From assembly GCA_017530105.1 (NCBI GenBank), contig JAFXMW010000098.1, positions 1-35,003 of the forward strand: a stretch of 35,003 bases of DNA, given 5' to 3'. Source of the DNA: Bacteroidales bacterium. GTDB lineage: Bacteria; Bacteroidota; Bacteroidia; Bacteroidales; P3. Shown here piece after piece: positions 13,839-35,003 of this stretch (position 1 is its first letter; each line of letters begins with the position of its first letter). The notes beneath the pieces were generated by a model. It searched no databases and had not been told where the DNA came from. It saw only the letters and a program-made list of their open reading frames with translations. A program made the position numbers and the translations under genes.

Positions 13839-14939
13839 ATGGAAAATTTCATTGTATCAGCGCGTAAGTACCGCCCCACGGATTTCGGCAGTGTGGTGGG
13901 GCAGCAGCATATCACCACCACCCTGAAAAACGCCATCCGTTCCGGACAGCTCGCACAGGCGTTTCTTTTCTGCGGTCCCCGCGGTGTGGGGAAGACCACG
14001 TGTGCCCGTATCCTCGCCAAGACGATTAATTGCACCAACCTCACCGCCGACACCGAGGCGTGCAACCAGTGCGAGAGCTGTCGCAGTTTCGCCGAGGGCG
14101 GCTCGATGAATATCTTCGAGCTGGACGCCGCTTCGCACAACACTGTCGACGACATCCGCGAATTGACCCAGCAGGTGTACATCCCTCCCCAGACGGGGCG
14201 TTACAAGGTGTATATCATCGACGAGGTCCACATGCTGTCGACTCAGGCCTTCAACGCGTTTCTAAAGACTTTGGAGGAGCCTCCCGCTTATGCCAAATTC
14301 ATCTTGGCCACCACCGAGAAGCACAAAATCCTCCCCACGATTCTTTCGCGTTGTCAGGTGTTCGATTTTAAGCGTATCCAGACAGAGGATATTGTCTCCC
14401 ACCTCAAAGCCATTGCCGAGAAAGAGGGTGTGGCTTACGAGGACGAAGCCCTGCACATCATCGCCCGCAAGGCCGAAGGGGGGCTGCGCGATGCCCTCTC
14501 GACGTTCGACCAGCTGGTGAGTTTCACCCGCGGCAACCTCACCCGTCAGCTCTGCAACGAGAACCTGAACCTGCTGGATGCCGACTATTATTTCCGTCTG
14601 ACAGACTACTTCCGCAACGGCGACCTCAGCGGCGCGCTCCTGCTGTATCAGGAGGTGATTGAAAAGGGTTTCGAGGGGCAGCATTTCATCACGGGTCTCA
14701 GCGAACATCTGCGCAACCTGATGGTGGCCATCGACCCCGCCACGCATAAACTCATGGAGATGGGCGAAGCCCTTCGCACCCGTTTCGGCCAGCAAGCCGC
14801 GGCTTGCGGTCTCGCGTTGCTGCTCCGCTGGCTGGACATTTCGAGCGATTACGAGTACCGTTACAAGGATGCGGGCAACAAGCGCCTTTTTGTCGAGGTG
14901 GCTTTGATGAAGCTGGCCACTGCGGTGACGAACCCTTAG
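13839..14939 (+). CDS. dnaX: DNA polymerase III subunit gamma/tau, N-terminal (gamma-like) part
   Basis: DnaX is the ATPase of the clamp loader, which opens the sliding clamp onto primed DNA. The 366 residues before the stop carry Walker A (GPRGVGKTT near residue 45), the zinc-binding cysteines (CTNL..., CNQCESC), Walker B (IIDEVHMLS), the sensor region (ILATTEKHKI) and the SRC motif (LSRCQVF). They end with the domain III helix (LFVEVALMKLA). I chose ATG 13839 (MENFIVSARKYRP) because it matches the family start and lies just after the promoter; the frame is open further upstream to 13647. A TAG at 14937 ends the ORF, but the same frame stays open to 15629 and encodes the rest of a normal DnaX. 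The product as it stands would be gamma-like. See the C-terminal entry. Confidence 0.88.
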   Translation: MENFIVSARKYRPTDFGSVVGQQHITTTLKNAIRSGQLAQAFLFCGPRGVGKTTCARILAKTINCTNLTADTEACNQCESCRSFAEGGSMNIFELDAASHNTVDDIRELTQQVYIPPQTGRYKVYIIDEVHMLSTQAFNAFLKTLEEPPAYAKFILATTEKHKILPTILSRCQVFDFKRIQTEDIVSHLKAIAEKEGVAYEDEALHIIARKAEGGLRDALSTFDQLVSFTRGNLTRQLCNENLNLLDADYYFRLTDYFRNGDLSGALLLYQEVIEKGFEGQHFITGLSEHLRNLMVAIDPATHKLMEMGEALRTRFGQQAAACGLALLLRWLDISSDYEYRYKDAGNKRLFVEVALMKLATAVTNP

Positions 14940-20643: not shown

Positions 20644-20666
20644 GTTTACTTGTAAAGTAATAATTT

Positions 20667-20717
20667 AAAACTAAAAACTAAAACTTGCACTTGCAAATCC
20701 TTTTAGTTTTTAGTTTT
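20667..20717. repeat. 17-bp perfect inverted repeat of CTAAAAA units
   Basis: Arms 20667-20683 and 20701-20717 are perfectly complementary around a 17-nt loop. The arm is built from CTAAAAA units, similar to the heptads of the defence island, and the right arm ends in six T residues. It may terminate the GH25-like transcript; it lies between that gene and the beta-barrel gene. Confidence 0.6.
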
Positions 20718-20731
20718 TTAATTTAGTAAAT

Positions 20732-21470: not shown

Positions 21471-21574
21471 CCACCTTCGCTCGTTCCCCGTCATTTCTCC
21501 CATATTTCTCCCATCCCCGATGGGAGAAATATGGGAGAAATGAGGTATTACAATCGCCAAACGAGCGAATGTGG
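21471..21574. repeat. Nested palindrome: 25-bp perfect hairpin inside a 15-bp stem
   Basis: The inner arms 21491-21515 and 21519-21543 are perfectly complementary around a CCC loop, and each arm contains a TTTCTCCCAT direct repeat. The outer arms 21471-21485 and 21560-21574 match at 14 of 15 positions. The element starts 8 nt after the beta-barrel gene and lies at the edge of the defence island. There is no T run, so a simple terminator is not the obvious reading. Confidence 0.75.
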
Positions 21575-21936: not shown

Positions 21937-24783
21937 TTAGGCATACACACACACCTCCTCGGCTTTGTCCAAATCTTCGGCAAAGGTGAGCTCGCCTTTG
22001 CTGTCGGCAAACACGTAGTCGAGAATGTGTTTCTTGGCCTCGTAGGCTTTATCAATGGTCTGACGGTTCTTCTCTTGGGTGAAGATGGCGGAGTCGTATT
22101 GGTTCTCTGTGCGATTATAGCTGATATGCTCCACAATCATTGTGGCTTTCTGTTCGCGGATGATATGGCTCACTTTGCGGATGAACTCCTCGGGGTTGTT
22201 CTTAAACATGTAAAGTTTCGATAGCTGTATCCCTTTCAGTATGCGCACCACCGTCCGGCGGGTCAGCGTTGCAGCCTTGGCGATGTCACCCACCAGGTCA
22301 TAAGGCACGTTGCTGGTCGATACTTCTCGCAACTCTTTTGTACGAGTGCTTTGCTCTCCTGTGAAATCCAATTCATCATCGCCCTGCATTCCTGTGGTGA
22401 CTACATATTTCAGCTGAGTGACATTCAGGTCTCTGTTGATGGCACCAATGGACTTTTGAATTAACTCTTCACTGTCATAATGCACAGTATAGACATAGCG
22501 GTGGTTTATTTCGTTCCATAAGGCTTTGAACTCCTTCTTCTCGGCATTGTCGTTCAGGTGGTCGTTCACCACTTCGGCCTTGCCATTGGCATCTTCCACC
22601 ATATCTATCAAGGCGGTGGGGTCGAAGATACTTTGTATCAACTTATGCACCTGCTCTTCTATAGGCTGTAGTTTCTTGCTCATGGGGGCAAGTGTGCCAT
22701 TCTCCAAGTCGGTATGGTAACCCTGCTGTATGTTGCCCTTTTTGTCGATGTAGTCGTTGTCGAACAGATAGCTGACTATGCTGGCAGCTTCCTGTTCCGA
22801 AATAGTGTGCAGCCCGCCATCCACCTTGAGGGTAATGTCCTTGAAGTAGTCCACAGTGGCCTTTGTCGGACGTTCACGGAGGGCCTCTTTTGTTTCTTTC
22901 TGTAGTGCGTCTACGAATGCGCTGTAGTTTTCGTTGGCTATCACGGTCAACTTGTTTGTATCGTGCACGGCATCACCCAGACGCTCTTTGTCCATTCGGT
23001 TGCCCTCTTTATCCACGCAGATACGCAGGCCTCGCCCCACCTCTTGCCGTTTGGCTGTGGCACTGTTGGCATGACGCAATGTGCATATCTGGAACACATT
23101 CGGGTTGTCCCAGCCTTCTCGCAGGGCGGAGTGGGAGAAGATAAAGCGTGTCGGCTCATCGAAACTCAACAACCGTTCCTTGTTTTTCAATATCAAGTCG
23201 TAGGCCGAGATGTCGTCCGAGGTGTCTTTGCCTCGTTTCACCTCGCTGTTGACCGAATGGCCTTTCTTGTCGATGGAGAAGTAGCCGTTGTGTACATCAG
23301 TGGCTGGGAAACGCCGCAGATATTTCTGATAGTCGTCTTCGAACAGCGTCAGGTTCTCATTCAAGTAGCGGTTGTATTCCTCCTCAAACATCTTCCATAA
23401 CGGACCTTGAACCTCATTGCCATCGCTGTCATAACTCTTGTAGTTGGCCACCTCGTCGATGAAGAACAGCGAGAGGGTCTTAATGCCCTGCTTGAACAGG
23501 GCGCGTTCTTTCTCAAAGTGCGACTTCACGGTTTCACGAATCTGTATCTGTTGGATGGCTTTCTCGCTCACGTCGCCCATCACCTCGCCTTGGTGCAGTG
23601 ATTGACCGTTCTGGAAATGGATGGTGTTGGTTCGTGGATTGATCTCAGTAATGACGAATTCCTTGTAGGCCGGCAGCCCTGATGCATCGTATAGTGAATC
23701 ATTATGTCTGAACTTGCAGGTCTGGCGGCGTGTACTTGCGGCTCCTTTTACCTCAATATCCAGCCGCACCTCGGGAGCTTTGTTTTTCGAGAGGATGATG
23801 CTGTCGAAGTAGATATAGCTCTGATTGCCCAGCAGGTTCTGCACGGTGATACCTTTTACCTGTATCTTCTTCACCAAGCGTTGTCTGTAGGCGTCGTAGG
23901 CATCAAGGGCATAGATGCAGTTGTGCGAAGTCTTGTGCGTGGCCGAGTAGTTGAGTACAAACAACGGCTTGAAGTTGCGCAAAGCCTTTTGAGTGGCATC
24001 GCCTTCCATCTTCTGAGGCTCGTCCATTATGATGATGGGACGGTTGGCGGCAATCACGTCAATGGGGCGGCGGCTTTGAAAGTCGTCACGTTTAGTATAC
24101 ATAATTAAGCTGACCTTATTCTTTGCTTCTTCTTTGAAGTCCCGGGCAAAAGCCTGCGTATTGATAATCATCACATTGATGTTAGCATCGCTGCTGAATG
24201 AGTCTATCTGTGTCAGGTTGTTGCTACTGTAGATGAAATAGCGGGCTTTCTTGCCATAAAGCTCCATGAAATGCTCTTCCAACATGGTGAAACTCTTATA
24301 TACACCCTCGCGGATGGCGATACTGGGCACCACCACAATGAATTTCGACCAGCCATAACGCTTGTTCAATTCAAACATGGTCTTGATATAGACGTAGGTC
24401 TTGCCGGTGCCGGTCTCCATCTCTATATCGAGCGAGCATGCACCTAGTCCGACAGGCTGGCTCAGTGTTGGCGACAAAGGGATGTCGCCTGCCACCTGTT
24501 GCTGATGGATATTGTCCAATAGCTGCTGTCCCGTCAGCTCCACATCGGCATTGCGATAGCCGGTATCAGTAGGCGTTAGACCCGAGACTTTAGACTCTAG
24601 ATTGCTGTCGCCGCCAAAGTCTAATGTCTCCCGACTAAAGTCTAAAACCCCCTGCTTCCCCTTCTGATTTCCCAGGTCACGCCTATATTGTGCGTTGGTC
24701 TTCGATGGCTGTCCTGCGAACACATCCACCGTACTTTCCACCGCCTCAGTCTGGTATTGCTGTATCTTGAATTTGAACTTCAT
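21937..24783 (-). CDS. res: Type III restriction enzyme Res, helicase part (truncated by TAA)
   Basis: This 948-residue superfamily 2 ATPase is the Res subunit of a Type III restriction-modification system, which translocates or slides on DNA and cuts after meeting Mod-bound sites. It shows Walker A METGTGKT near residue 125, the DEPQ box near 254, and motif VI EVGRGLRI near 583. The family start KFKIQQYQTEAVESTVDVF is present. Residues about 46-71 (core FSRETLDFGGDSNLESKVSG) are an insertion encoded by a palindromic repeat (24571-24648), in a loop before the ATPase. A TAA at 21937 removes the C-terminal nuclease domain, which follows in frame. The start overlaps the YhcG stop by 4 nt. The gene is the last in the island, and its partner mod lies two genes upstream. 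Confidence 0.9.
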   Translation of the reverse strand: MKFKFKIQQYQTEAVESTVDVFAGQPSKTNAQYRRDLGNQKGKQGVLDFSRETLDFGGDSNLESKVSGLTPTDTGYRNADVELTGQQLLDNIHQQQVAGDIPLSPTLSQPVGLGACSLDIEMETGTGKTYVYIKTMFELNKRYGWSKFIVVVPSIAIREGVYKSFTMLEEHFMELYGKKARYFIYSSNNLTQIDSFSSDANINVMIINTQAFARDFKEEAKNKVSLIMYTKRDDFQSRRPIDVIAANRPIIIMDEPQKMEGDATQKALRNFKPLFVLNYSATHKTSHNCIYALDAYDAYRQRLVKKIQVKGITVQNLLGNQSYIYFDSIILSKNKAPEVRLDIEVKGAASTRRQTCKFRHNDSLYDASGLPAYKEFVITEINPRTNTIHFQNGQSLHQGEVMGDVSEKAIQQIQIRETVKSHFEKERALFKQGIKTLSLFFIDEVANYKSYDSDGNEVQGPLWKMFEEEYNRYLNENLTLFEDDYQKYLRRFPATDVHNGYFSIDKKGHSVNSEVKRGKDTSDDISAYDLILKNKERLLSFDEPTRFIFSHSALREGWDNPNVFQICTLRHANSATAKRQEVGRGLRICVDKEGNRMDKERLGDAVHDTNKLTVIANENYSAFVDALQKETKEALRERPTKATVDYFKDITLKVDGGLHTISEQEAASIVSYLFDNDYIDKKGNIQQGYHTDLENGTLAPMSKKLQPIEEQVHKLIQSIFDPTALIDMVEDANGKAEVVNDHLNDNAEKKEFKALWNEINHRYVYTVHYDSEELIQKSIGAINRDLNVTQLKYVVTTGMQGDDELDFTGEQSTRTKELREVSTSNVPYDLVGDIAKAATLTRRTVVRILKGIQLSKLYMFKNNPEEFIRKVSHIIREQKATMIVEHISYNRTENQYDSAIFTQEKNRQTIDKAYEAKKHILDYVFADSKGELTFAEDLDKAEEVCVYA
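24571..24648 (-). repeat. In-frame palindromic heptad element in res (copy A)
   Basis: An imperfect palindrome is built from 7-nt units, with a TTAG-type left arm and a CTAA-type right arm. GAGACTTTAGAC pairs with GTCTAATGTCTC at 11 of 12 positions around a loop of 23 nt. Its first 67 bases (24571-24637) match 28354-28420 in mod at 63 positions. It is read through in frame as part of Res. Confidence 0.85.
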
Positions 24784-25841
24784 TTTTCAGTCCCTTTCTG
24801 TTGAAGCATAAAAATCTCCTTCTGTCGCTCAATCTCTTTAGCCAGCTCATCCTCTGTCGGCAGATAAGTAAGGTATTTCGATGCAAACAACTGTTTACTA
24901 CTGTTAAGGACAGAGTACCGAGCTATGTCTTCGCTGGTTGCGGAACAAAGGAGCAAGCCTACAGTCGGATTGTCTCCCTCAGTTCTTTTCAAGTCATCGA
25001 ACATCCTTACGTACATATCCAACTGCCCTACATCCTGATGGGAAATCTTCTTCGTTTTCAAGTCTATCAGCACATAGCATTTCAAGATTACATTGTAGAA
25101 AACAAGGTCAACAAAGAAATCGCCAACATCTGTGGATATATGGTATTGTTCCGCCATAAAAGCGAACCCGCGTCCCATTTCGAGAAGGAACTCTTTGATA
25201 TGTGCAATGATGGCGTGTTCCAGTTGAGTCTCTGTATAATCGCTGTTTGAAGGCAATTGAAGAAACTCCGCCACAACAGGGTCTTTCATAAAACTGCGTG
25301 CATCATCTTTCAGCGGTGCTGTCAACTGTTGCATCTCAGCAACCACGGCATCCTTTTTGGGCGACTGTAGCAGACGATGGTAATACTGAGAGCCGACATT
25401 GCGAGCCAGCGTGCGGACGCTCCACATCTCACGAGAGGCTTCCTGTACATACCAATAGCGTGCATCATCATCTGTTACGGACAGAAGCGTTCGATAGTGC
25501 GACCAGTTCAGATTTGGTACACGCGTGTACCAAATCTCCAAGTCATTAAAGCATAAATATAACTGACGGTAATTACGCAAGTCTCGAGGAGAATAGCCTT
25601 TAGGGTAAATCAATGTCAGCTCTTTTGATAATTGGTTTATTAATCCTTTGCCATATTCCGCCCGGGTCTCACCGTGCTGCTCTTCCTCAACGATACGTCT
25701 GCCTACTTTCCAGTAGGTGAACACCGTTGTTGCATTCACGTCATTGTAGGCCTTCCGCATACCATTTTCGACGATGGTCTGCACGTCCTTCACCAATGCC
25801 GATATTCCATGTTCTTCAGAATTCATCAGTCCTTTTGCCAT
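24780..25841 (-). CDS. YhcG/DUF1016 PD-(D/E)xK nuclease-domain protein
   Basis: This 353-residue protein of the YhcG (DUF1016) family has an N-terminal DUF1016 domain (VFTYWKVGRRIVEEEQ, YGKGLINQLSKEL, YSPRDLRNYRQLY, LNWSHYRTLLSV) over residues about 15-170. A C-terminal PD-(D/E)xK nuclease fold over about 200-340 has FFVDLVFYN (D) and YVLIDLKTKK (D-x-K). Members are often encoded within restriction-modification loci, but their role there is not settled. The stop overlaps the res ATG by 4 nt (TCAT on the plus strand), so the two are translationally coupled. Upstream is a heptad array and a 32-codon ORF. With Res losing its nuclease domain, this intact nuclease next to it is notable, though replacement of function is speculation. 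Confidence 0.9.
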   Translation of the reverse strand: MAKGLMNSEEHGISALVKDVQTIVENGMRKAYNDVNATTVFTYWKVGRRIVEEEQHGETRAEYGKGLINQLSKELTLIYPKGYSPRDLRNYRQLYLCFNDLEIWYTRVPNLNWSHYRTLLSVTDDDARYWYVQEASREMWSVRTLARNVGSQYYHRLLQSPKKDAVVAEMQQLTAPLKDDARSFMKDPVVAEFLQLPSNSDYTETQLEHAIIAHIKEFLLEMGRGFAFMAEQYHISTDVGDFFVDLVFYNVILKCYVLIDLKTKKISHQDVGQLDMYVRMFDDLKRTEGDNPTVGLLLCSATSEDIARYSVLNSSKQLFASKYLTYLPTEDELAKEIERQKEIFMLQQKGTEK

Positions 25842-25884
25842 AACAGTTCTTATATGTAACGCAAGTTTTTTTTGGTAGTATGTA

Positions 25885-25968
25885 ATCTAAAGTCTAAAAA
25901 CTAAAGTCTAATATCTAAAGTCTAAAAACTAAAGTCTAAAAACTAAAGCCTAAAATCTAAAGTCTTTT
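25885..25968. repeat. Heptad array, 12 units
   Basis: Twelve consecutive 7-nt units such as ATCTAAA, GTCTAAA and AACTAAA (CTAA on the plus strand) lie between YhcG and the PIN gene. The array supplies the stop codon of the 32-codon ORF at 25950-26048. Confidence 0.9.
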
Positions 25969-26048
25969 TTATTATCACCCGATTCTCTATCTTGCAGCAA
26001 TTGCTCCAAAACAGGTTGCAGGTCATCGTATTCGTGGATTCGCTTCAT
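25950..26048 (-). CDS. 32-codon ORF ending in the heptad array
   Basis: An ATG at 26048 opens 32 codons (MKRIHEYDDLQPVLEQLLQD, then RESGDNKKDFRF) lying just after the PIN gene stop (overlap none, 7 nt gap). The first 25 residues look like a real amphipathic, acidic helix. The last residues and the TAG come from the heptad array, which suggests a longer gene cut short by the repeat, or a small protein with a repeat-made tail. I do not recognise a family. Confidence 0.4.
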   Translation of the reverse strand: MKRIHEYDDLQPVLEQLLQDRESGDNKKDFRF

Positions 26049-26055
26049 ATTTACT

Positions 26056-27858
26056 CTAAAATGGTAATTCAACATGTTTGTATATGTAGTTGACATTGAT
26101 TATTTTATCAGATAAACCTGTAACAATAATCTGTTTTTGGGGTATCGCATAGTAAGTCATTAATGCTTCTTTTATTTGAGATTTTATTGAGAAAAGACCG
26201 CCTGACTCTTTTTTGAATGTATCACTAATATTTTCCCCATTGCATTTTAATGATTTGGTGCTACCATCTGATTCTATCAAAAATTCAAATTCATAAGTCC
26301 TATTTGTTCCCACTTGAGGGACAAATCGTTTGTTTTTCACTCTCGACAATTGATCATTAATAAATTCGAATGGTTTTACTACATTTAGTTTATTGATATT
26401 GTTTATTATTTCTTCAAAGTAAGTTGCCTTAAATCCTAATGGTCGGATTTCGGCATTACTATTAAAAAATACCTCATAAAGGATACCATCTATTAATGCT
26501 TTTTGGCACCATGGTTCCCAATCTTTGATGTATGATGAATAATTTTCTAAGAAGGAGATTGCACTACCAGAAGAACCTTCTGCACATTGAGTAATGTTTC
26601 TACCTAATACAAAAATTGAACTTCTATTAATATCTGTATTGCCTACATGAATCTCTCGCAGTCTCATTATTTTGTTAATGGCAGGATTCTGAATATACCA
26701 ATCATATGATTTTAACTTTTCTATATAAGAATCCATAAAGCCATGTGTATTCGTAGTGTCATATTGTCCATCTCGTATCGCAGTTCCTATATATAGAGGA
26801 GACTCTATATCCTCTTTGTAATCTGTGGTAATAGATGTCTCTTGCTTTTCTTGTTCTATATCATTATCTATATCTATGATTTTATCAAGAGGCATAGTAA
26901 CTCCAAAGTCATCATAATCTGGAGACTCATTAGCCGTTTCTTCTTCTGCAGTTGCTATTTGGAAAGAAATTGCTAATCCACGATATTTAGAGGCAAACAG
27001 CTGTACAAATGTTTTAAAATCGATAATACAGAAGTCTGTACCACCAGTTTTAATTTGAAATTCATAAATCAAACTTTCTTTGGCAATTTTCACCCGTTCA
27101 AATTCTCCTGCATTCCTCCCCGAGTCTATTATTTGTATCTCTGGAGAATAAACTATATCAGGTTTGCTGTCTCGAGATAATAATACGGCTTTCTTGATAC
27201 TATTTGATTTGCAATATTCTAAAATTTCTTTCCAAATAATAAGGTCACCCATCTTATTGGAATCTTTGGAAGCATCTTTATAGCCCGGTGGAATTAGATT
27301 GTCACATCTTTGTCGATAAGCTTCGTCTTGGTCTTGAATTAGAGAATAGATATCTGATGACAAAGACTTTGAAGTCATTTTCTGTTCTATTTCTTCGTGA
27401 ACTTTACGTTGGTGTTGATTTAAATTTTTATTAATAGTGTTGCTTATTCTCTCCAGTAGTTCTTTTATTTTATCTACATCTTCTTTTAGCTTGTCTATTT
27501 CCCCTTGGTATATTGAACCTTGCAACAAAGTGTCTCCAATATAACCTTTCACGAAATCACTTATGTTGTTGAACTCTTTTGCATGTGTTTTTATCTTGTC
27601 CAGTTCAGATAAATATTCCTTTGTTTTTTGTAGATATACCTTATTTGAATATTCATGAATAACCCAAACTGGAACGTGGAAGCGGCTACCACATTGGTCC
27701 ATCCAACTATAAAAGTCTTGGCGAGCCGTATCATTTAAGCGGTACAATTGTGAGATGACATTTGTATCAATGAATATAGCACAATCGGCATCGTCTAATA
27801 GAGATACTATATATTGATGGTATTTAGATATGTCTTTTTTTTTCTTCGGAAACTTCAT
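26056..27858 (-). CDS. PIN-like domain protein (putative ribonuclease)
   Basis: This 600-residue protein begins with a PIN-like domain of the PIN_8 type. It has AIFIDTNVISQLYRL with Asp31, then VWVIHEYSNKVY with a conserved acidic residue near 75. A long coiled-coil insertion spans about 85-190, and KKAVLLSRDSKPDIVY lies near 220-235. PIN domains are Mg2+-dependent RNases, and long PIN_8 proteins are often found in defence loci. The C-terminal half (about 330-600) matches no family I recognise. The DNA is clearly more AT-rich than all neighbouring genes, with many ATA, TTA and AAT codons. It lies 15 nt after mod, so it seems to be an insertion in the Type III operon from another source. Target and effect are unknown. 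Confidence 0.75.
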   Translation of the reverse strand: MKFPKKKKDISKYHQYIVSLLDDADCAIFIDTNVISQLYRLNDTARQDFYSWMDQCGSRFHVPVWVIHEYSNKVYLQKTKEYLSELDKIKTHAKEFNNISDFVKGYIGDTLLQGSIYQGEIDKLKEDVDKIKELLERISNTINKNLNQHQRKVHEEIEQKMTSKSLSSDIYSLIQDQDEAYRQRCDNLIPPGYKDASKDSNKMGDLIIWKEILEYCKSNSIKKAVLLSRDSKPDIVYSPEIQIIDSGRNAGEFERVKIAKESLIYEFQIKTGGTDFCIIDFKTFVQLFASKYRGLAISFQIATAEEETANESPDYDDFGVTMPLDKIIDIDNDIEQEKQETSITTDYKEDIESPLYIGTAIRDGQYDTTNTHGFMDSYIEKLKSYDWYIQNPAINKIMRLREIHVGNTDINRSSIFVLGRNITQCAEGSSGSAISFLENYSSYIKDWEPWCQKALIDGILYEVFFNSNAEIRPLGFKATYFEEIINNINKLNVVKPFEFINDQLSRVKNKRFVPQVGTNRTYEFEFLIESDGSTKSLKCNGENISDTFKKESGGLFSIKSQIKEALMTYYAIPQKQIIVTGLSDKIINVNYIYKHVELPF

Positions 27859-27873
27859 GTTAATACTACCTGT

Positions 27874-30027
27874 TTAAATGATTCTTCTGATTGTGTCTTT
27901 ACTGTATTCTTCCCAGATTTGTTCAAAGTTGTCGGCTACTTGGTCGGTGGCGAGGCTGGCGTCTCGGAGGACGAAGTAGTAGGGGTGCTGCTTGGCGATG
28001 GCTTTGATGGCGGTCTCGTTGACATCATTGTCGAAACAGGCCATTAGGTAGCCTTCGGCAACATTCCAAACTTTGATTTTAGGCTTTAGTTTTGAGGCGT
28101 TAGACGTTAGTCCTTTTCCAGCAGTTGTCTCGTCGCTAAAGTCTAAAGTCTCACGACTAAATTCTAAACACTCTATCTTGGCCGACAATTCTATACCTAA
28201 TTCTATCATGGCTTGGAAAAGCAAGTCTTCATCTGTACGGTCATGCTTGATATTGTCCTCGAAGAGTAGTTTTTCGTTGAACTCCTCGGGTGAGTAATAG
28301 ACATCCTGCATATTGGAGCTATCGAGTTTCAGCACTCGGAAGCCGACATCTACAGGCTTTAGACCTGAGACTTTAGACCCTAGATTGCTGTCGCCGCTAA
28401 AGTCTAATGTCTCCCGACTATCGTCTATCTTTTTCTTTTGCTCTTCAAGAATTTTCTTTCCAGCCCGACGGATGCGATCCTTGCCAATTTCGCAGAGATT
28501 TGAATAGTTCGCTACTTTGCATTCTTCGTTTAGTTGAACTAAAATGAATCTTCTGTGACCAGAGTCTTCTGCATTCCTCTCTAAAGTGGCTTGAGCAGTT
28601 GTTGCAGAACCTGAAAAGAAGTCAAGAACAATCGAATCATTTTTTGTTGCAATATCGATTATTCTCTTCACTAATCGTGTCGGTTTTGGAGTGTCAAACG
28701 GAGCATTTCCAGCAAACAGTGATTTTAATTCTTTCTTTGCCTCATCGTTATGACCCACCTCGTCATATTGCCAAAGATTAGTGACGATTTTCCCATCCAT
28801 ATCCTCTAAATAAGCTTTACGTCTTACCCGACCTTGTCCTCCTTTGGTAAAATAGAATAACGGCCATGGCCCTTTTGAGTATAATTCAGAAGCATGTTTT
28901 CTGGCCGATTCAAGAGGTTCATCCAACATTATTCCTGCCACCTCTTTACGAACATCATCTCGATTAATGCCACAAATTTCAGCTCTCATTTCTTCGTCGT
29001 GAAGGTCGACTAGTTTATATTTAGCCCATCTGCTAATACTCTCAAGTACAACTCTTTGCTCACGACACCAACATCTCCCTTTTGTGGGATATATTAATTC
29101 CCCGTTGAATGGGTTTTGAACTGCGTAAACCATACCTTGGTGGGTGACCGCACCCGGTGCAAATGCATCAGCACTGGTCCAATCACATCTGTCATTATCG
29201 GGGTTGCTATACAAAGAATCCATTTGCTTGGTGCGATTGAGCCTATTGGGTGTCCAATTCGGATTCTTCGAGTACACAACAATATGTTCCACCTCTGCAG
29301 AGACACCAGTGTTGTTGTTCTTTGGGGAATAAGTTTTCTGCCATGAAATGTCGGCTACAAAGTTATGCTCTCCATAAATTTCGTTTAAAATTTTTGTTAG
29401 ATTGCAAATTTCGTTGTCATCAATCGAGATAAATATCACCCCATCCTCGCTAAGTAAGTCCTTGGCCACTTTCAACCGGGGGTAAATCATATTAAGCCAG
29501 TCGGTATGGAAGCGGCCATTGCTTTCGGTGTTGGACACGAGACGGTTGCCCTCTTCGTCCTCCTGTCCGCTGTTGTGGATGTAGTCGCCTGTGGTTTGTG
29601 CAAAGTCATCATTATAGACAAAGTCATTGCCTGTGTTGTAGGGCGGGTCGATGTAGATCATCTTCACCTTGCCCAGATAGTTTTCGCGGAGCAGCTTCAG
29701 CACTTCGAGATTGTCGCCCTCGATATAGAGGTTCTGTGTGTTGTCGAAGTCCACGCTCTCCTCACGACATGGACGCAGGGTGTCGGTGGTGGGGACATTG
29801 GCCAAGCGGATGGCGTTGCGCTTGTCAGGCCAAGTGAACTGATATCGTTCCTCTGGACCTTCCACGATGTCCTTCGACAGCTCCTGCCGCAGCTGGTCAA
29901 AGTCGATGGCCACCTCCGGCCGTCCGTTCTCATCCAACCGTTCTGTCAAACAATTCGGGAAAAACTCCCCAATACGTTTTATATTTTCATCCACGATGTT
30001 CGTGGTCTGCATATTCAATTTTTCCAT
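27874..30027 (-). CDS. mod: Type III DNA methyltransferase Mod
   Basis: This 717-residue beta-class adenine N6 methyltransferase gives the Type III system its sequence recognition and protects host DNA. Motif IV is MIYIDPPYNTGNDF near residue 129 and motif I is VLDFFSGSATTAQA near 470, the order expected for the beta class. The central target-recognition region lies between them. Two stretches in the C-terminal part are made of repeat DNA: about residues 534-558 (DSRETLDFSGDSNLGSKVSG) and about 622-649 (FSRETLDFSDETTAGKG...). They sit in loops before GFRVLKLDSSN and before WNVAEGYLMACFD. The gene is otherwise intact, so methylation is probably active. A heptad array directly abuts the start codon. 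Recognition sequence cannot be predicted. Confidence 0.93.
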   Translation of the reverse strand: MEKLNMQTTNIVDENIKRIGEFFPNCLTERLDENGRPEVAIDFDQLRQELSKDIVEGPEERYQFTWPDKRNAIRLANVPTTDTLRPCREESVDFDNTQNLYIEGDNLEVLKLLRENYLGKVKMIYIDPPYNTGNDFVYNDDFAQTTGDYIHNSGQEDEEGNRLVSNTESNGRFHTDWLNMIYPRLKVAKDLLSEDGVIFISIDDNEICNLTKILNEIYGEHNFVADISWQKTYSPKNNNTGVSAEVEHIVVYSKNPNWTPNRLNRTKQMDSLYSNPDNDRCDWTSADAFAPGAVTHQGMVYAVQNPFNGELIYPTKGRCWCREQRVVLESISRWAKYKLVDLHDEEMRAEICGINRDDVRKEVAGIMLDEPLESARKHASELYSKGPWPLFYFTKGGQGRVRRKAYLEDMDGKIVTNLWQYDEVGHNDEAKKELKSLFAGNAPFDTPKPTRLVKRIIDIATKNDSIVLDFFSGSATTAQATLERNAEDSGHRRFILVQLNEECKVANYSNLCEIGKDRIRRAGKKILEEQKKKIDDSRETLDFSGDSNLGSKVSGLKPVDVGFRVLKLDSSNMQDVYYSPEEFNEKLLFEDNIKHDRTDEDLLFQAMIELGIELSAKIECLEFSRETLDFSDETTAGKGLTSNASKLKPKIKVWNVAEGYLMACFDNDVNETAIKAIAKQHPYYFVLRDASLATDQVADNFEQIWEEYSKDTIRRII
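28081..28165 (-). repeat. In-frame heptad element in mod (copy C, diverged)
   Basis: It starts AGGCTTTAG and ends with CGCTAAAGTCTAAAGTC, then a degraded CTAA arm. The right part matches copies A and B, while the middle has diverged. It encodes the second SRETLDFS peptide of Mod in the same frame as the other copies. Confidence 0.7.
28354..28427 (-). repeat. In-frame palindromic heptad element in mod (copy B)
   Basis: It matches res copy A at 63 of 67 bases (28354-28420) and is read in the same frame, giving SRETLDFSGDSNLGSKVSG against SRETLDFGGDSNLESKVSG. The four base differences include changes that keep or alter the amino acid, so the copies have had time to diverge a little. Confidence 0.85.
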
Positions 30028-30061
30028 TTTTAGACTTTAGTTGTTAGGCGTTAGACTTTAG
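30027..30061. repeat. Heptad array, 5 units, next to the mod start
   Basis: Units TTTTTAG, ACTTTAG, TTGTTAG, GCGTTAG and ACTTTAG (TTAG on the plus strand, opposite to the array at 25885) abut the mod ATG. They would form the last part of its 5' leader. Confidence 0.8.
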
Positions 30062-30154
30062 TTTTTTCTGTTCATTTACCTTGCAGATTTCTCCATATAA
30101 TAAAAAATATATCATCAACATTTTCAATATCAGTTGTTTGTTTTGATTTGTAGA

Positions 30155-30178
30155 TTAAGCATGTTCAAACATGCTTAA
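30155..30178 (-). terminator. 11-bp palindrome over the DUF4391 stop codon
   Basis: TTAAGCATGTT and AACATGCTTAA form a perfect 11-bp stem with a 2-nt centre. The stop codon of the DUF4391 gene is inside it. It lacks a T run on the minus strand, so it may be an RNA hairpin that separates this gene from mod, or a protein-binding site. Confidence 0.45.
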
Positions 30179-30772
30179 TATTTGTTTCAGATTTATGAGT
30201 TCTCGGTGCAATTCATATTTTTTGTGCGTTTGTTTCTCCAACCGGCATTTCTTTTCGAGGGCTTCTATCTGTCGGAGCAGTCTCTCTTTCTTTTCACGGT
30301 TGATTATCTGCTGTTCGATGGTTTCTTCCGATGTGGCATCAAGGTCTCCTATACTTGCCACAATGTTGTTCCAGACATCATCAAGATTCAAACCCTGGAG
30401 TGGGATAATGGCCTCATCTGTCGGCATCCATGCCGACTGTTGCAGCTGGGTGTGAAAGATACAGAACTGCGTCTGACCATCGTAAATCAGTGCAAAAACG
30501 ATATTCTGTGGAATCAACTTTTGCAGCAACAGGATGTTCTTTGTGTCATACTCCCTATGCTTCAAATCCACCTGTAGTACATAGAAGCCTTTCACCTCTT
30601 TGCCTTCGGACAATGCCGGGACGGTGGAGGGAGACACACGGGCCACCAACACCATACGGCTGATGTCCGCATCGAAACGGTCGCGCTCAACCGTTTTCAG
30701 GTTGAACTTTTCGAAGACCGTTTTCTTGTAGAGCGGCTGGCTGATGACAGTAGATGGTGGCAAGTTGTACAT
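30155..30772 (-). CDS. DUF4391 domain protein
   Basis: This 205-residue protein of the DUF4391 family starts LPPSTVISQPLYKKTVFEKFNL. It has the conserved block FYVLQVDLKHREYDTKNILLLQKLIPQNIVFALIYDGQTQFCIFHTQL, then W...IV..IG and a C-terminal coiled coil (residues about 160-203). The domain has no established function. From memory it commonly lies between an SNF2-type helicase gene and Type III mod/res genes, as here, so it is probably a component of that defence unit. It starts 8 nt after the S23 gene, and a palindrome covers its stop codon. Identification is fairly good; role is inferred from context only. Confidence 0.8.
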   Translation of the reverse strand: MYNLPPSTVISQPLYKKTVFEKFNLKTVERDRFDADISRMVLVARVSPSTVPALSEGKEVKGFYVLQVDLKHREYDTKNILLLQKLIPQNIVFALIYDGQTQFCIFHTQLQQSAWMPTDEAIIPLQGLNLDDVWNNIVASIGDLDATSEETIEQQIINREKKERLLRQIEALEKKCRLEKQTHKKYELHRELINLKQILSMFEHA

Positions 30773-30777
30773 GATAG

Positions 30778-30805
30778 TCGTTAGTTGTTAGGCTTTAGAC
30801 ATTGG
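30778..30805. repeat. Heptad array, 4 units, at the 3' end of the S23 gene
   Basis: Units TCGTTAG, TTGTTAG, GCTTTAG and ACATTGG (TTAG on the plus strand) encode the last residues and the stop of the S23 gene. The block AGGCTTTAGAC is the same as the left edge of mod copy B. Confidence 0.75.
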
Positions 30806-31167
30806 TTTTGGGGCTTTAATGAGTTAGAAAGGGCATTGAGCATTTTGCTGATTTCTTCTATTAGGTTATAGATATTAGTTGCCAGACTCTGGTCAATATA
30901 GCCTATGCGGAGACATATTTCAATTTGTGTTTCTAATTCCCATAAAGAGCCTCGGGCAATAGATAAGAACTGAATGAACTCCTTATCAGAATTGCGGCCT
31001 TGGCCTTCGGCAATATTAGAAGGAATCGACACAACCGCTCGGCGCATCTGGTCAGACAAGGCATAGGTTTCCTCCTTTGGCAAAAGTTTGACTAGTTTAT
31101 AAACCTCAACAGTCAAATCCATTGCCTTCTGCCAAACCTTCAATTCTTTATAATTACTCGATTTCAT
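30781..31167 (-). CDS. S23 four-helix-bundle protein (23S rRNA intervening-sequence family)
   Basis: This 128-residue protein has the conserved S23/IVP signature: LKVWQKAMDLTVEVYKL, YALSDQMRRAVVSIPSNIAEGQGR, FIQFLSIARGSLWELETQIEI and a final helix. The family was first seen in intervening sequences inside 23S rRNA genes and is related in fold to the Avd protein of diversity-generating retroelements; the molecular role is unclear. The last residues (QCLKPNN) and stop are encoded by heptad repeat DNA, and an 11-unit heptad array lies 10 nt upstream of the ATG. The two flanking arrays are in opposite orientation. It sits inside a defence operon but is not a usual part of one, so it may be a passenger of a mobile element. 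Confidence 0.9.
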   Translation of the reverse strand: MKSSNYKELKVWQKAMDLTVEVYKLVKLLPKEETYALSDQMRRAVVSIPSNIAEGQGRNSDKEFIQFLSIARGSLWELETQIEICLRIGYIDQSLATNIYNLIEEISKMLNALSNSLKPQNQCLKPNN

Positions 31168-31176
31168 TTTCTTAAA

Positions 31177-31253
31177 GTCTAATGTCTAAAGTCTAATGTC
31201 TAAAGTCTAATGTCTAAAGTCTAAAATCTAAAGTCTAATGTCTAATAACTAAG
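31177..31253. repeat. Heptad array, 11 units
   Basis: Eleven 7-nt units, mostly GTCTAAT alternating with GTCTAAA, lie between the helicase and S23 genes. The array encodes the last four residues (VIRH) and the TAG stop of the helicase gene. Confidence 0.92.
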
Positions 31254-34200
31254 AAACAAATTAGTTCGAAGTCGTCGAGGCCAGAAATCTTCTTATCGAA
31301 CAGCTCTCCCTGCACTCCGTCTAGGAAGCTGTCCATATCGGACGATTCCTTCACGGAAATGATGGAGTTGATGGCTTTGCTGAGCAAGTCGGAATACTTG
31401 TCCATGCGCAGGCCATCGCGGGTTTCTTTATTGAATTGACTACAGAGTTTCACATCGGGTGCGTGCAAGGGTTTGCAGAGCAGACGCATCCTGTCGAGCA
31501 TGTCTTTGGGGTGCAAATGGTCTATGACCACATCCCCTGTGTCGGAGATATAGACCATATAGAAGGGGTGCAGCTGGTTCTTGTGGTCAATGTTTATACC
31601 TGCCGTTCTGTTTTTTAGCACAAAGATTGTTCCTGGAGGAGTCTGCTCTGTGGCTGAAACAACGGCATGCAGTCCGAAGGGGGTATGTTCCACATCGTGA
31701 TTGCTGTTCATATACTCTAGTAAGTCCAGCCGGAATTCGTTAAGTCCCAAGTCCATGATGCTTACCCCACTGTTCATCTCCTCGAGGTCAACCACATCTT
31801 CCTGCAAGCGTTTCAGCTGGATGCGCCGGTACTCTAAATCGTCTTTTTCTTCAGGTGACAGAAGATTGTCGTCGCCTGTGGAGGTCATTACCGTTACTTT
31901 CATGCGTGCCTCCACTCGGCCTTTCAGGTTGATATACTCGTCGAGCGTCATATCCGGCCAGTAATTGACCAACTGTATCTGCGCATTCTTAGACCCGATA
32001 CGGTCGATACGTCCGAAACGCTGGATAATGCGGACGGGATTCCAGTGTATGTCGTAGTTGAGCAGATAGTCGCAGTCCTGCAGGTTCTGGCCTTCACTGA
32101 TGCAGTCGGTAGCAATGAGCACATCTATCTCTTCATTCAGATTTGGATAAATGGCTGCACGTTCTTTCGAGACAGGAGAAAACAGGGTCAACACTTTGTT
32201 GAAGTCGAGTTTCTCTTTCAACTTAAGGGTACTCCTTGCTTCCACATCGCCGGTGACAAGTGCCACATTCAAACCATACTTGGACTTGATGGCGTCAGCC
32301 AAATTGTTATACAGATATTCTGCTGTGTCGGAGAAAGCCGTAAACACCAGCACCTTTTTGTTGTTGCCATTAATGGGGTGGGCAAACTTGTCTTTCAAGT
32401 CGCTGATGAGCTGCTGCAGTTTGCTGTCGTGCTCAGGCGTGATGCTTTTGAGCATATACAGCAGCAACTGGATGATTTCAAGGTCACTCTCGATTTCATC
32501 CCGCCATGAGATGTAATCCATATCCTCCAAGAGAATACGGTTTTTCTTTTTGCCGATGGTGAAGTCCTGTTCGTCCTCATCCACATCGGCACTTTCGTAG
32601 TCATCCACCGACACACGCCTTTCGCCTTTCTCAAAGCGGGCAATGGCATCGAGTGTTTCCTGCATATAGTCACGGATACGACCCAGAGTAAGGCGGAAGG
32701 AGTTGACAGACGATTCCAGCCGTTTCAGCAACTGCATATTCATCAGCCGTTGAATACCCCGTTCACGTTCTTCAATGCTCAGCCGATGTCCTGACGAGCC
32801 TTCCTCTTCTTTGTATTTCCATTGCTGGGTCGCCAGAATAAAAGCCGAAGGGGTATAAATAGCCAAACGGAGCATCTGCAATTGCTCGAATATCTCGTTG
32901 TAGTTGATGGCTGTGTCGAGGTCGGTCAGATGCGGATTGCGTGAGATGGGTTTTAGGCGCTCGGGGAATGTGCCAATGTCTGTGGTATCGTAATACTGCT
33001 GGATGTGCTTACGGCTACGGGCGATGGTCACTGCATCAAGTAGTTTGAAGAAATCGAAGTCGAGCATTCGCAACAAACGTTCCGTAGTCCTTTCTTGTGG
33101 TGGTAAGTCTGCCCAGATGTTATAGGCACCTTGTGCCTGACGGAAGATGTCGTCAATGCCCCTGTTGGTGGGCAGTAGCTTGTCAAACGCTTTTGCCTCT
33201 CCTTCGTAAGCCAACTGGAGCTGGTTCTTGAGGTCGTTGAAACGGTTGTTGACAGGAGTGGCAGAAAGCATCAATACTTTTGTCTTCACGCCTGAACGGA
33301 TTACCTTGTTCATCAGACGTAGGTAGCGGTTCTCCTTAGGGTTCTCACCGTACTCGTCGGTAGAAGTCTTTCCACCATTGCGGAAGTTGTGGCTCTCATC
33401 AATCACTACAAGGTCAAAATTGCCCCAGTTGATTCGGTCCAAGTCAATATCATTACTACGCCCGTGGTCGCGAGAGAGGTCTGTGTGATACAGAATCTTA
33501 TAGTTTAAGCGGTCTTTTACCAACGGGTTGTTCGTATAGAGCTGCCGATAGGTATTCCAGTTTTCGTAGAGCTTCTTGGGACAGAGAACAAGAACGGAAC
33601 GGTTTCGACTCTCGTAGTACTTGATGACAGACAATGCGGTGAAGGTTTTGCCCAAACCTACGCTATCGGCAAGGATGCAACCGTTGAACTTTTCCAGTTT
33701 ATTGATGATGGCCAAGGCGGCATCACGCTGGAAGTTATAGAGTTTGTTCCAGATAATAGAGTTCTTGAAGCCTGTTGCCTCATTGGGCAGTTCATCCTCA
33801 CTGATGTCTTCCAGAAACTCGTTGAAGATGTTGTATAGAGCCACAAAGTAAAGGAACTCTGGAGCATTCTCCTTATAGACGTTGCTGATATTGTCGATTA
33901 CCTCTTCCGTCACCACCTGCATACGTGCCGAGTCGTTCCATAGCTGGTTGAACAGGTCGATATAGGCTTTTGAGAATGGTGCATCGGCCTTTTGTATCAT
34001 TGTATATGCAGTGTTGCCTTTCTCACAGCCAAGGTCGACGGTTGTGAAGCCATCCAAGGGAGAATAGCTGGTATCGTCAAGAGTGATAAACCCCATCATC
34101 TGCTCGTTGGTGCTGTTGGACTTGAAACAGACCTTTTGACGTATCCACTCGGCGCACTCGTGGGCAATGGCTTTCTGCGTAAGTTCGTTTCGCAGTTTCA

Positions 34201-34465
34201 CCTCAAACTCCGAACCAAATAGTGTGCGTTCACGTCCCAGGCGTGGGATATAAAATTCCCGCTGGTGTTTAGGGGTCTTCTCTGTAGTGAATGTGGGTGA
34301 AGTGAAAATGAACCGTAGTTCTTTTATTTCTTTTAGAGCATCTTTGAGTTCTTGAAAGGCATAGATGGAAAAGCATGATGCAGCAATCGACAGTTGGCTT
34401 CCTGCCGTTATCTGCTGTAACAAATCGTCGCGCAGAGTCTTACTTACATTGTTAATCAGTTCCAT
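31235..34465 (-). CDS. SNF2-type helicase with N-terminal PLD-like region
   Basis: This 1076-residue superfamily 2 protein of the SNF2/RapA-like group carries Walker A ADSVGLGKTFTAL near residue 272, the DESHNFR box near 357, LSATPVNNRFNDL near 400 and C-terminal motifs LIATDCISEGQNLQDCD and QRFGRIDRIGSKNAQ near 820. The first 110 residues (LSIAASCFSIYAFQELKDAL...ELRFIFTSPTF) resemble the phospholipase-D-like start of defence-type helicases, without an HKD motif that I can see. It is the first gene of the island, with a -7 promoter box 86 nt upstream, and probably remodels or translocates on DNA together with the DUF4391 protein. The last codons and stop derive from the heptad array. It could be an independent defence module next to the Type III system rather than part of it. 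Confidence 0.88.
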   Translation of the reverse strand: MELINNVSKTLRDDLLQQITAGSQLSIAASCFSIYAFQELKDALKEIKELRFIFTSPTFTTEKTPKHQREFYIPRLGRERTLFGSEFEVKLRNELTQKAIAHECAEWIRQKVCFKSNSTNEQMMGFITLDDTSYSPLDGFTTVDLGCEKGNTAYTMIQKADAPFSKAYIDLFNQLWNDSARMQVVTEEVIDNISNVYKENAPEFLYFVALYNIFNEFLEDISEDELPNEATGFKNSIIWNKLYNFQRDAALAIINKLEKFNGCILADSVGLGKTFTALSVIKYYESRNRSVLVLCPKKLYENWNTYRQLYTNNPLVKDRLNYKILYHTDLSRDHGRSNDIDLDRINWGNFDLVVIDESHNFRNGGKTSTDEYGENPKENRYLRLMNKVIRSGVKTKVLMLSATPVNNRFNDLKNQLQLAYEGEAKAFDKLLPTNRGIDDIFRQAQGAYNIWADLPPQERTTERLLRMLDFDFFKLLDAVTIARSRKHIQQYYDTTDIGTFPERLKPISRNPHLTDLDTAINYNEIFEQLQMLRLAIYTPSAFILATQQWKYKEEEGSSGHRLSIEERERGIQRLMNMQLLKRLESSVNSFRLTLGRIRDYMQETLDAIARFEKGERRVSVDDYESADVDEDEQDFTIGKKKNRILLEDMDYISWRDEIESDLEIIQLLLYMLKSITPEHDSKLQQLISDLKDKFAHPINGNNKKVLVFTAFSDTAEYLYNNLADAIKSKYGLNVALVTGDVEARSTLKLKEKLDFNKVLTLFSPVSKERAAIYPNLNEEIDVLIATDCISEGQNLQDCDYLLNYDIHWNPVRIIQRFGRIDRIGSKNAQIQLVNYWPDMTLDEYINLKGRVEARMKVTVMTSTGDDNLLSPEEKDDLEYRRIQLKRLQEDVVDLEEMNSGVSIMDLGLNEFRLDLLEYMNSNHDVEHTPFGLHAVVSATEQTPPGTIFVLKNRTAGINIDHKNQLHPFYMVYISDTGDVVIDHLHPKDMLDRMRLLCKPLHAPDVKLCSQFNKETRDGLRMDKYSDLLSKAINSIISVKESSDMDSFLDGVQGELFDKKISGLDDFELICFLVIRH

Positions 34466-34550
34466 CTTGTATGTATCATGTAATTAATCCTTTTAATACA
34501 TCAAAAAGAATTGTGTTTTTTGCTGTTTCCTTTCTGTTTTATTTTGGGTG

Positions 34551-34558
34551 CAAAGATA
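34551..34558 (-). promoter_or_regulatory. -7 box of the defence island promoter
   Basis: TATCTTTG on the minus strand lies about 86 nt upstream of the helicase ATG. The expected TTTG about 19 nt further upstream is not evident. The 5' leader contains A-rich sequence and no ORF of note. Confidence 0.55.
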
Positions 34559-34675
34559 CGAATTTTTTTCTGTTTGGTGAGGATTTGGGATGGTTTTCTT
34601 GAAAAAAAGTGGGGTTGAGGATGAGGGGGTTGTATCGGGTCGGGGTGGGTATGCGCCGGTTGGGGCGGTTTGGTG

Positions 34676-34705
34676 TTTGGACATGAATTTGTTTTTGTAT
34701 TTTTG
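34676..34705 (+). promoter_or_regulatory. Bacteroidetes-type promoter, divergent from the island
   Basis: TTTG (34676-34679), 18 nt, then TATTTTTG (34698-34705). Spacing is identical to the promoter at 2087, and both precede the same leader motif. No plus-strand protein gene follows inside the window. Confidence 0.65.
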
Positions 34706-34778
34706 CAGCCGGAAAGGAGGGATGATGCGTAGAACTGGCTGTTGTCTGTTTTGCTCATTTCCATCCCTAGTTTCTGGG

Positions 34779-34806
34779 AGAGTTCTTTGACATGTTGTGT
34801 TTTGGT
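34779..34806 (+). promoter_or_regulatory. boxA-like leader motif, copy 2
   Basis: The 28-nt segment starting AGAGTTCTTTGAC is identical to 2195-2222 except at two positions. It lies 81 nt after the -7 box and 4 nt before the inverted repeat starting at 34811. Confidence 0.5.
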
Positions 34807-34810
34807 TAAA

Positions 34811-35003
34811 CCCAAATCGGTCATTAGACCGACTTTTATATCCTTTCTCGTTTTTTTAGGTCTGTTTATGCCATATCAGCATTTCTTTCGGCATCTTGTC
34901 CACATCCCTGTCTCGCCGTAGCCCGCTACGTCTTCGCCAGCGATGCGGCCAATCTGCTCGAAACAAATACTAATCTGCCATAAACCCTAATGACCGATTT
35001 GGG
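34811..35003 (+). repeat. 17-bp perfect inverted repeat enclosing about 160 nt, cut by the window edge
   Basis: 34811-34827 and 34987-35003 are exact reverse complements (CCCAAATCGGTCATTAG). The left arm also forms a local hairpin, TCGGTC-ATTA-GACCGA at 34817-34832, which would compete with the long-range pairing. The enclosed DNA shows no ORF. It could be an untranslated RNA closed by its ends, or the border repeats of a small element. What follows lies outside the window. Confidence 0.55.

Follow-up and report, generated by a model that had tools for sequence, protein, structure and literature searches.

Palindromes read in frame in a Bacteroidales type III restriction-modification operon as probable solo copies of S23 elements

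We analyzed a 35,003-nt stretch of Bacteroidales DNA (assembly GCA_017530105.1, contig JAFXMW010000098.1, positions 1 to 35,003; hereafter the window) in which a type III restriction-modification operon carries palindromic repeats inside both its restriction gene, res, and its methyltransferase gene, mod. The same operon contains a gene for an S23 protein, or "23S rRNA intervening sequence protein" (Pfam family PF05635), placed between two inverted arrays of the 7-nt unit that also builds the palindromes, TTAGACN on the minus strand. Below, the arrays on either side of an S23 gene are called arms, and palindromes without an S23 gene are called solos.

21937..24783, minus strand: res, restriction subunit of type III, containing one solo palindrome (open reading frame and profile matches)
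24567..24648, minus strand: solo palindrome in frame in res, with TTAGAC-type units, core GGCGACAGCAATC and inverted units
27874..30027, minus strand: mod, methyltransferase of type III, containing two solo palindromes (open reading frame and profile matches)
28350..28427, minus strand: solo palindrome in frame in mod, copy 1; the same linker holds S23 elements in Mod of other phyla
28081..28165, minus strand: diverged palindrome in frame in mod, copy 2
30781..31167, minus strand: S23 gene, 128 aa, PF05635 (profile E 1.1e-44)
31173..31245, minus strand: upstream arm of the S23 element, ∼10 TTAGACN units; provides the helicase stop codon
30773..30818, minus strand: downstream arm (array 30772-30818), inverted and degenerate; codes for the S23 C terminus and stops at the DUF4391 start codon

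Positions 24571-24637 in res and 28354-28420 in mod were identical at 63 of 67 sites (94%; E 9.1e-24 in a search of the 2.75-Mb genome), exactly as a first-pass annotation, made from the sequence without database searches, had noted. The similarity extends over 87 nt at 87% identity (24558-24644 and 28341-28427). Both copies are read in one common minus-strand frame, again as annotated, and encode near-identical peptides: SRETLDFGGDSNLESKVSGLTP at Res residues ∼50-71 and SRETLDFSGDSNLGSKVSGLKP at Mod residues ∼536-558. The third, diverged copy that had been placed in mod is present at 28081-28165 and is also read in frame (SRETLDFSDETTAGKGLTSNASKLKP, Mod residues ∼622-649). RNA folding bore out the hairpins proposed for the two closest copies, each of which folded better than 200 of 200 shuffles (z −3.7 in res and −3.5 in mod); for mod copy 2 (z −2.1), 5 of 200 shuffles were equally good. 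In profile matches, the Res insert lies N-terminal of the ResIII match (residues 120-283), and both Mod inserts lie C-terminal of the methylase stretch at 445-502, one of two Pfam stretches in Mod. The annotation's list of copies covered the three in genes and omitted the S23 gene and four further TTAGACN arrays in the window. These arrays are the two arms listed above and two single arrays, given here with the genes that adjoin the S23 element.

25886..25965, minus strand: single TTAGACN array 5′ of a YhcG-type nuclease gene, 11.4 copies of 7 nt
30028..30067, plus strand: single TTAGACN array immediately 5′ of mod, inverted relative to 25886-25965
30155..30772, minus strand: DUF4391 gene, a neighbor of the S23 insertion site
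31235..34465, minus strand: SNF2/ResIII helicase gene, the other neighbor of the S23 insertion site

The S23 protein of the window belongs to PF05635 (151.4 bits against a curated cut-off of 33.8), and its open reading frame (ORF) lies between inverted repeats (locus L044, inverted-flank score 33). The element is located not in 23S rRNA but between the helicase and DUF4391 genes; as a whole it folds weakly better than shuffles (z −1.9). A scan of 8 operon proteins (21937-34824) found neither a transposase nor a reverse transcriptase.

Comparison with relatives separated the repeats from the proteins that carry them. None of 11 aligned Res homologues and none of 11 Mod homologues readable at the sites had the peptide of the window; a twelfth Mod row (L195), with no residues at the site, was left out. 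Among the readable Mods, one has another palindrome at the site and three have an S23 element. The Mod of L218 carries at the window's Mod linker an in-frame palindrome of a different unit (GAGGAAT), and where the window's Res has its insert, a Res that is 92% identical (L283) has a short linker of unrelated sequence. The first-pass annotation had held that the same peptide in homologues would mark ancestral protein sequence; since the 11 Res and 11 Mod homologues are without it, the repeat is not ancestral. Palindromes of the same kind, with a core near GGCGAYAAYAATCTAAAG, also occur between genes or at a gene end on two other contigs of the genome:

contig C30: ∼12190-12260
contig C31: ∼2940-3000, 12490-12570 and 14011-14076

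A search of 119 genomes of the genus with one copy matched the window's own genome and, weakly, one other (G055, E 0.006). The S23 family itself was far more widespread: PF05635 matched in 58 of 59 genus genomes, at up to 18 places, with 57 genomes above the cut-off. The window's genome has three weaker matches, one (52 bits) above the cut-off and two below it.

Inverted arrays flank S23 genes and vary with the S23 protein

We compared the flanks of S23 genes in a genus sample (88 loci with both flanks, from 92 domain hits), a multi-phylum sample (77 of the best 80 loci; the genome-contig scan found at least 566 relatives) and a plasmid sample (8 of 31 records, all cyanobacterial). Sampling was not random: loci were taken for their S23 score or hand-picked from a list. 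An inverted match scoring at least 30 between 200-nt flanks was found at 136 of 169 S23 loci and in 1 of 331 control windows from the same contigs, as well as at 18 of 20 further loci fetched later. In the genus sample, the median score was 46.5 for flanks of the same locus against 17 for mismatched pairs, and 56 of the 88 loci exceeded the 99th percentile of mismatched pairs (41.6). The corresponding medians in the multi-phylum sample were 38 and 17, with a mismatched 99th percentile of 45; seven of the eight plasmid loci scored 38-63, and the eighth scored 17. The upstream flank matches the reverse complement of its own downstream flank and not those of other loci. In general, S23 genes are enclosed by inverted arrays of short units, which vary by locus and match between the arms.

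The units followed the S23 protein. We compared one locus's arm with the opposite arm of another at nonorthologous sites, counting a score of at least 30 as similar. Similar units occurred in 2.2% of pairs with less than 30% S23 identity, 1% at 30-40%, 3% at 40-50%, 11.6% at 50-60%, 21.5% at 60-70%, 54% at 70-80% (54 pairs) and 95% above 80% (18 of 19). Similar S23 proteins with similar arms at unrelated sites indicate that gene and arms travel together. One site of presence and absence was found among seven operon stretches from relatives, two of which (G091 and G130) were not comparable there. In four relatives (G139, G017, G062 and G109), the last helicase codon and the DUF4391 start are 8, 8, 8 and 12 nt apart, stop codon included, with no S23 gene; with the S23 element, the gap measures 465 nt in the window and 421 nt in L286 (genome G165). 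The four relatives without the element would favor a gain, gain and loss being inseparable from the site alone.

Of 328 arms with a hit from Tandem Repeats Finder (TRF), 219 had a best period of 7, 14 or 21, and 47 of the other 109 a period of 8-10, at a low threshold that 74 of 111 control windows also passed (18 of these at period 7 or 21). Upstream arms are poor in C on the S23-sense strand (9% compared with 23% in flanks), and 229 of 265 arms contain more G than C. At periods 7-10, the copy number lay between 4.05 and 5.05 in 87 of 184 arms, below this range in 25 and above it in 72. On a 393-kb contig (G169:C1), exactly five TTAGAC units made up 16 of 24 arms (an earlier, stricter script gave 13 of 23). 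In 392 kb of genome G168, picked where hits were listed, 14 of 34 arms had five units and 8 had four. Both counts leave out arrays of under three units, and reversed controls gave no arms in either case. Two solved S23 structures (2gsc and 2rld) have five chains each, which leads us to propose that each protomer may correspond to one unit.

At G008:C32:70027 (L332) and G002:C23:3252 (L335), the S23 gene has one internal stop while the arms still match, which suggests that the gene decays before the arms; five further S23 places in the genus scan also have one internal stop. In the upstream flanks of L057 and L061, ∼70 nt comprising array and inner flank are tandemly repeated, a hint of how arrays and solos multiply.

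S23 genes nested in methyltransferase genes

Seven of the best 80 multi-phylum loci had the S23 gene inside a DNA-methyltransferase gene (Mod or PglX), in one relative shifted frame. Four of these, from Omnitrophus (L166), Synergistaceae (L186), Treponema (L195) and Fibrobacter (L202), carry the S23 element at the Mod linker that holds copy 1 in the window; in L195, Mod is split at a point upstream of the S23 insert. The other three are Bacillota loci (L159, L162 and L183) with S23 in PglX of the bacteriophage exclusion (BREX) system, the PglX of L162 being a C-terminal piece below the NCBIfam cut-off. In all seven, the host frame runs through the nested S23 gene without a stop. Synonymous shuffles averaged 1.4-3.5 stops, with the share of shuffles as low at most 0.04 for six of the loci, and 165 non-nested S23 genes averaged 7.6 stops in the corresponding frame. 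The nearest in-frame start of the nested S23 is ATG in five cases and GTG in two. In a tree of low resolution (93 rows, 118 columns), the seven sequences are spread over several positions. In loci from four phyla, the same defense-methyltransferase linker houses a nested gene, read in a frame other than that of its host.

The PADLOC PglX model PDLC02522 matches, at about positions 270-415 of 1218, the shifted-frame reading of S23 in four hosts. This match means that the nested pattern exists beyond these loci. The model appears to include an S23 insert of its own, a warning that S23 inserts seem to have entered protein models.

Counts of units across genomes

The pattern TTAGACNTTAGAC, allowing at most one mismatch, was counted in 23 genomes alongside a control pattern. 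It had 283 hits in G168 (control, 33) and 280 in G169 (27), two genomes whose S23 genes (L136 and L137) are relatives of the window's S23 with the same unit. In the genus of the window, 13 of 15 genomes had 0-5 hits. Other counts were 10 in G062 (control, 15), 19 in G091 (18), 1 in G130 (16) and 21 in G170 (17). Nine solos on G169:C1 form inverted pairs, spaced by −2 to 15 nt, and the opposite order did not occur. With ORFs called by a simple rule, 0 of 15 elements on G169:C1 and 0 of 33 in the G168 stretches lay in genes, although ∼92% of the sequence counted as coding; in-gene copies are therefore exceptions.

Two other units were counted in the same way. GGTTATN, in 24 genomes, was compared with a poor control, which can match GGTTATT arrays. 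Where an S23 of this unit was known, it had 21 hits in G027 (control, 20), 41 in G024 (11) and 20 in G045 (3). Elsewhere there were 135 in G035 (75), 119 in G008 (28), 77 in G002 (22), 65 in G055 (15), 63 in G022 (24) and 18 in G001 (0), with at most 6 in each remaining genome; an S23 with the GGTTATN unit was later found in G008 and G002. The unit GTTGATNN, with controls of 0-2, had 218 hits in G011, 104 in G037 and 49 in G045, where an S23 of that unit was known, and 227 in G049, 45 in G022, 37 in G001, 31 in G057, 28 in G002 and fewer in the rest. Whether only genomes with the cognate S23 are rich in a unit thus received mixed answers for both.

Interpretation, rival explanations and known systems

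We propose, with a probability of roughly 0.7, that the in-frame repeats in res and mod are S23-less solos of an apparently mobile S23 family and that the arms are five-site arrays for an S23 pentamer. In the full element, two inverted arrays would enclose an S23 gene; their short units would usually be 7 nt and sometimes 8-10 nt long, and each S23 lineage would have its own unit. The pentamer would bind an arm as single-stranded RNA or DNA with a protomer on each unit, five units thereby forming one site. The two arms could also form a hairpin that carries the S23 gene in its loop; solo palindromes would retain the two arms around a short core. Copies might spread through RNA or hairpin DNA, giving both full elements and solos. 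Most solos would land between genes or at gene ends, and a few in protein linkers, where stop-free copies would be tolerated. The intervening sequences (IVSs) of 23S rRNA would be ribosomal members of the same kind. The first-pass annotation's mobile, protein-tolerated mini-element survives here insofar as the repeat is palindromic, is tolerated and behaves like a mobile element; its membership of an S23-centered family of many phyla had been missed.

We advance a wider version only tentatively, giving it somewhat less than even odds. It posits a mobile element of many phyla whose sole protein, the S23 pentamer, would read RNA or single-stranded DNA arms, each of their five short units taken by one protomer. 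With a lineage-specific unit, each S23 would spread its own repeat, which would explain many bacterial heptamer repeats as well as the rRNA IVSs, and the element would be able to insert into a methyltransferase gene, with S23 read in a second frame and the host frame left open.

A number of observations weigh against these proposals. The first-pass annotation expected alignment to homologues to reveal the insertion as a clean gap; instead, linker residues had been replaced at both the Res and the Mod sites. No target duplication was seen, and S23 is not known to act as a nuclease, transposase or polymerase. Among the nested loci, L186 did not reach significance (0.155), and two non-nested S23 genes (L193 and L045) are also stop-free in the corresponding frame. 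The excess of the TTAGAC pattern is modest in G000 (29 hits; control, 14) and lacking in G165 (9; 16) and G167 (9; 10), despite S23 genes with a TTAGAC unit; G171 has 100 hits (8), yet the one S23 locus fetched from it has a different unit. GGTTATN is abundant in G035, G055 and G022 and absent from the S23 loci fetched there, which are part of the copies. In G049, three S23 loci were fetched, and neither of the two with both flanks has the GTTGATNN unit. The arms in G168 are mostly unpaired and their five-unit peak is less sharp, and the 72 arms with more than five units include the window's own upstream arm. Finally, at orthologous sites, only 37 of 76 pairs had arms more similar within a locus than between loci. 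General concerted evolution of arms, tested by this comparison, was not shown, and concerted change of the two arms was observed in single cases only, such as L110/L124 (within-locus scores 59 and 56; cross-locus, 14).

Four other explanations compete with S23-borne solos. The arrays might be regulatory sites of another protein, acting in translation or termination, with the res and mod copies arising by chance duplication and S23 as a passenger. Arrays do lie directly 5′ of mod, the YhcG-type gene and S23 in the window, and a posttranscriptional role was proposed for TAACTGA heptamers (PMC4679880). The strand bias of arms would suit a strand-specific binder, convergent genes flank 4 of the 9 paired solos on G169:C1, and some genomes are rich in a unit with no S23 of that unit among the loci fetched. 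However, this explanation leaves unaccounted for the matched inverted arrays at S23 genes (136 of 169 against 1 of 331), the covariation of units with S23 identity and the nesting of S23 in Mod and PglX, and we regard it as improbable. A separate transposase that moves the palindromes with S23 as cargo, in the manner of repetitive extragenic palindromes and their tyrosine transposases (REP/RAYT) or of miniature inverted-repeat transposable elements (MITEs), appears slightly less probable still. Dispersed inverted palindromes around one gene resemble REP/RAYT, and S23 is not known to have catalytic activity, but no transposase was among the 8 operon proteins scanned, and the covariation of units with S23, in a set of loci all found through S23, points to S23 itself.

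Slippage of simple sequences, perhaps serving phase variation in mod, would account for tandem units, and heptamer simple sequence repeats (SSRs) are common in bacteria (PMC4692102). It would not account for inverted arms with a short core, imperfect units, open frames in genes or a peak of arm size near five units, and we reject it as very unlikely. The in-gene copies, in particular, do not look like phase-variation SSRs, in which near-identical direct units switch the frame: their arms are inverted, their units are imperfect and their frame is open. Ancestral or convergent protein sequence, suggested by two copies with a near-identical peptide in one frame, is rejected as next to impossible; the homologues are without the peptide, and the same DNA is found outside genes.

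The S23 element has its closest counterpart in the IVSs of 23S rRNA in Coxiella and others, where an S23 ORF is likewise enclosed by terminal inverted repeats. In Coxiella, the IVS has a terminal stem of 28 bp, and tandem heptamers (GACAGAT) come immediately 5′ of the S23 ORF; the authors of that work consider the IVS a selfish genetic element, and S23-carrying IVSs, known for more than 25 years by 2016, were still of unclear function and origin (PMC4990558). The elements described here differ in lying between or inside protein genes, in having units that follow the S23 lineage and in their dispersed S23-less palindromes; the Coxiella IVS would fit as the ribosomal version of the S23 element.

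A second counterpart is the heptamer SSR, which, like S23 arms, consists of tandem 7-nt units and is mostly intergenic. Such repeats include GGGAATC in Xanthomonas, GGGGA(C/T)T in Nostoc, TAACTGA in Beggiatoaceae and cyanobacteria and heptanucleotides in Calothrix; those of Xanthomonas most often have four units, and two species have 70 and 75 pairs in inverted order (PMC4692102, PMC4679880). The parts consulted name no proven binding protein, and neither S23 nor a four-helix protein came up in a text search of the two papers. S23 is a candidate partner of the Xanthomonas, Nostoc and Beggiatoaceae repeats, a suggestion built on the cyanobacterial plasmid loci. In Xanthomonas, a solved S23 (XCC0516) and heptamer repeats coexist. 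Among the papers listed in a literature search that took in no bioRxiv preprints and few subscription papers, the only link between S23 or four-helix proteins and short repeats was that of the Coxiella heptamers, and there was no report of matched inverted arrays around non-rRNA S23 genes, of solos or of S23 nested in methyltransferases. The link between S23 and arrays offers a testable partner for both IVS elements and heptamer repeats; if true, the spread by each S23 of its own repeat could account for the abundance of seven-letter repeats in bacterial genomes.

Other systems are more distant. The likeness to Rickettsia palindromic elements drawn by the first-pass annotation holds for a palindromic repeat in frame in unrelated proteins, here Res and Mod; it fails for the clean insertion and for in-gene placement elsewhere (0 of 48 in the G168 and G169 stretches). 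Nothing ties the repeat to the Rickettsia family itself. The Rickettsia elements come from another taxon, whereas the full element of the window's type carries a gene and has a tandem heptamer as its unit. REP/RAYT shares one gene between inverted palindromes and dispersed gene-less copies, but in our elements that gene is S23 and not a Y1 transposase, and the arms are tandem arrays. Avd, of diversity-generating retroelements, is described as homologous in structure to PF05635 (PMC10053308); unlike those retroelements, the operon showed no reverse transcriptase among its 8 scanned proteins. An association of S23 with CRISPR adaptation genes has been reported (PMC10910872). Plasmids of Anabaena sp. 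90 (L279) and Pseudanabaena galeata (L282) carry S23 with inverted arrays between cas6 and cas4, and the association may reflect insertion rather than function.

Several smaller features of the window lie beside these subjects. The single arrays at 25886-25965 and 30028-30067, in inverted order, flank a PIN-like gene and mod, as if one repeat bracketed a larger module; they are at most 83% complementary and 4.1 kb apart. The gap between mod and res (24780-27858), which holds the PIN-like and YhcG genes, measures 3090 nt in the window and varies in relatives (3078, 4660, 16, 1012 and −1 nt among L283, L284, L285, L286 and L287). At 20658-20724, between two ORFs, inverted AAAACTA and TTTTAGT heptamers perhaps form a small palindrome of a different unit, and at 21471-21574 two 44-nt inverted arms, 16 nt apart and 70% complementary, contain the 11-nt repeats ATTTCTCCCAT and ATGGGAGAAAT.

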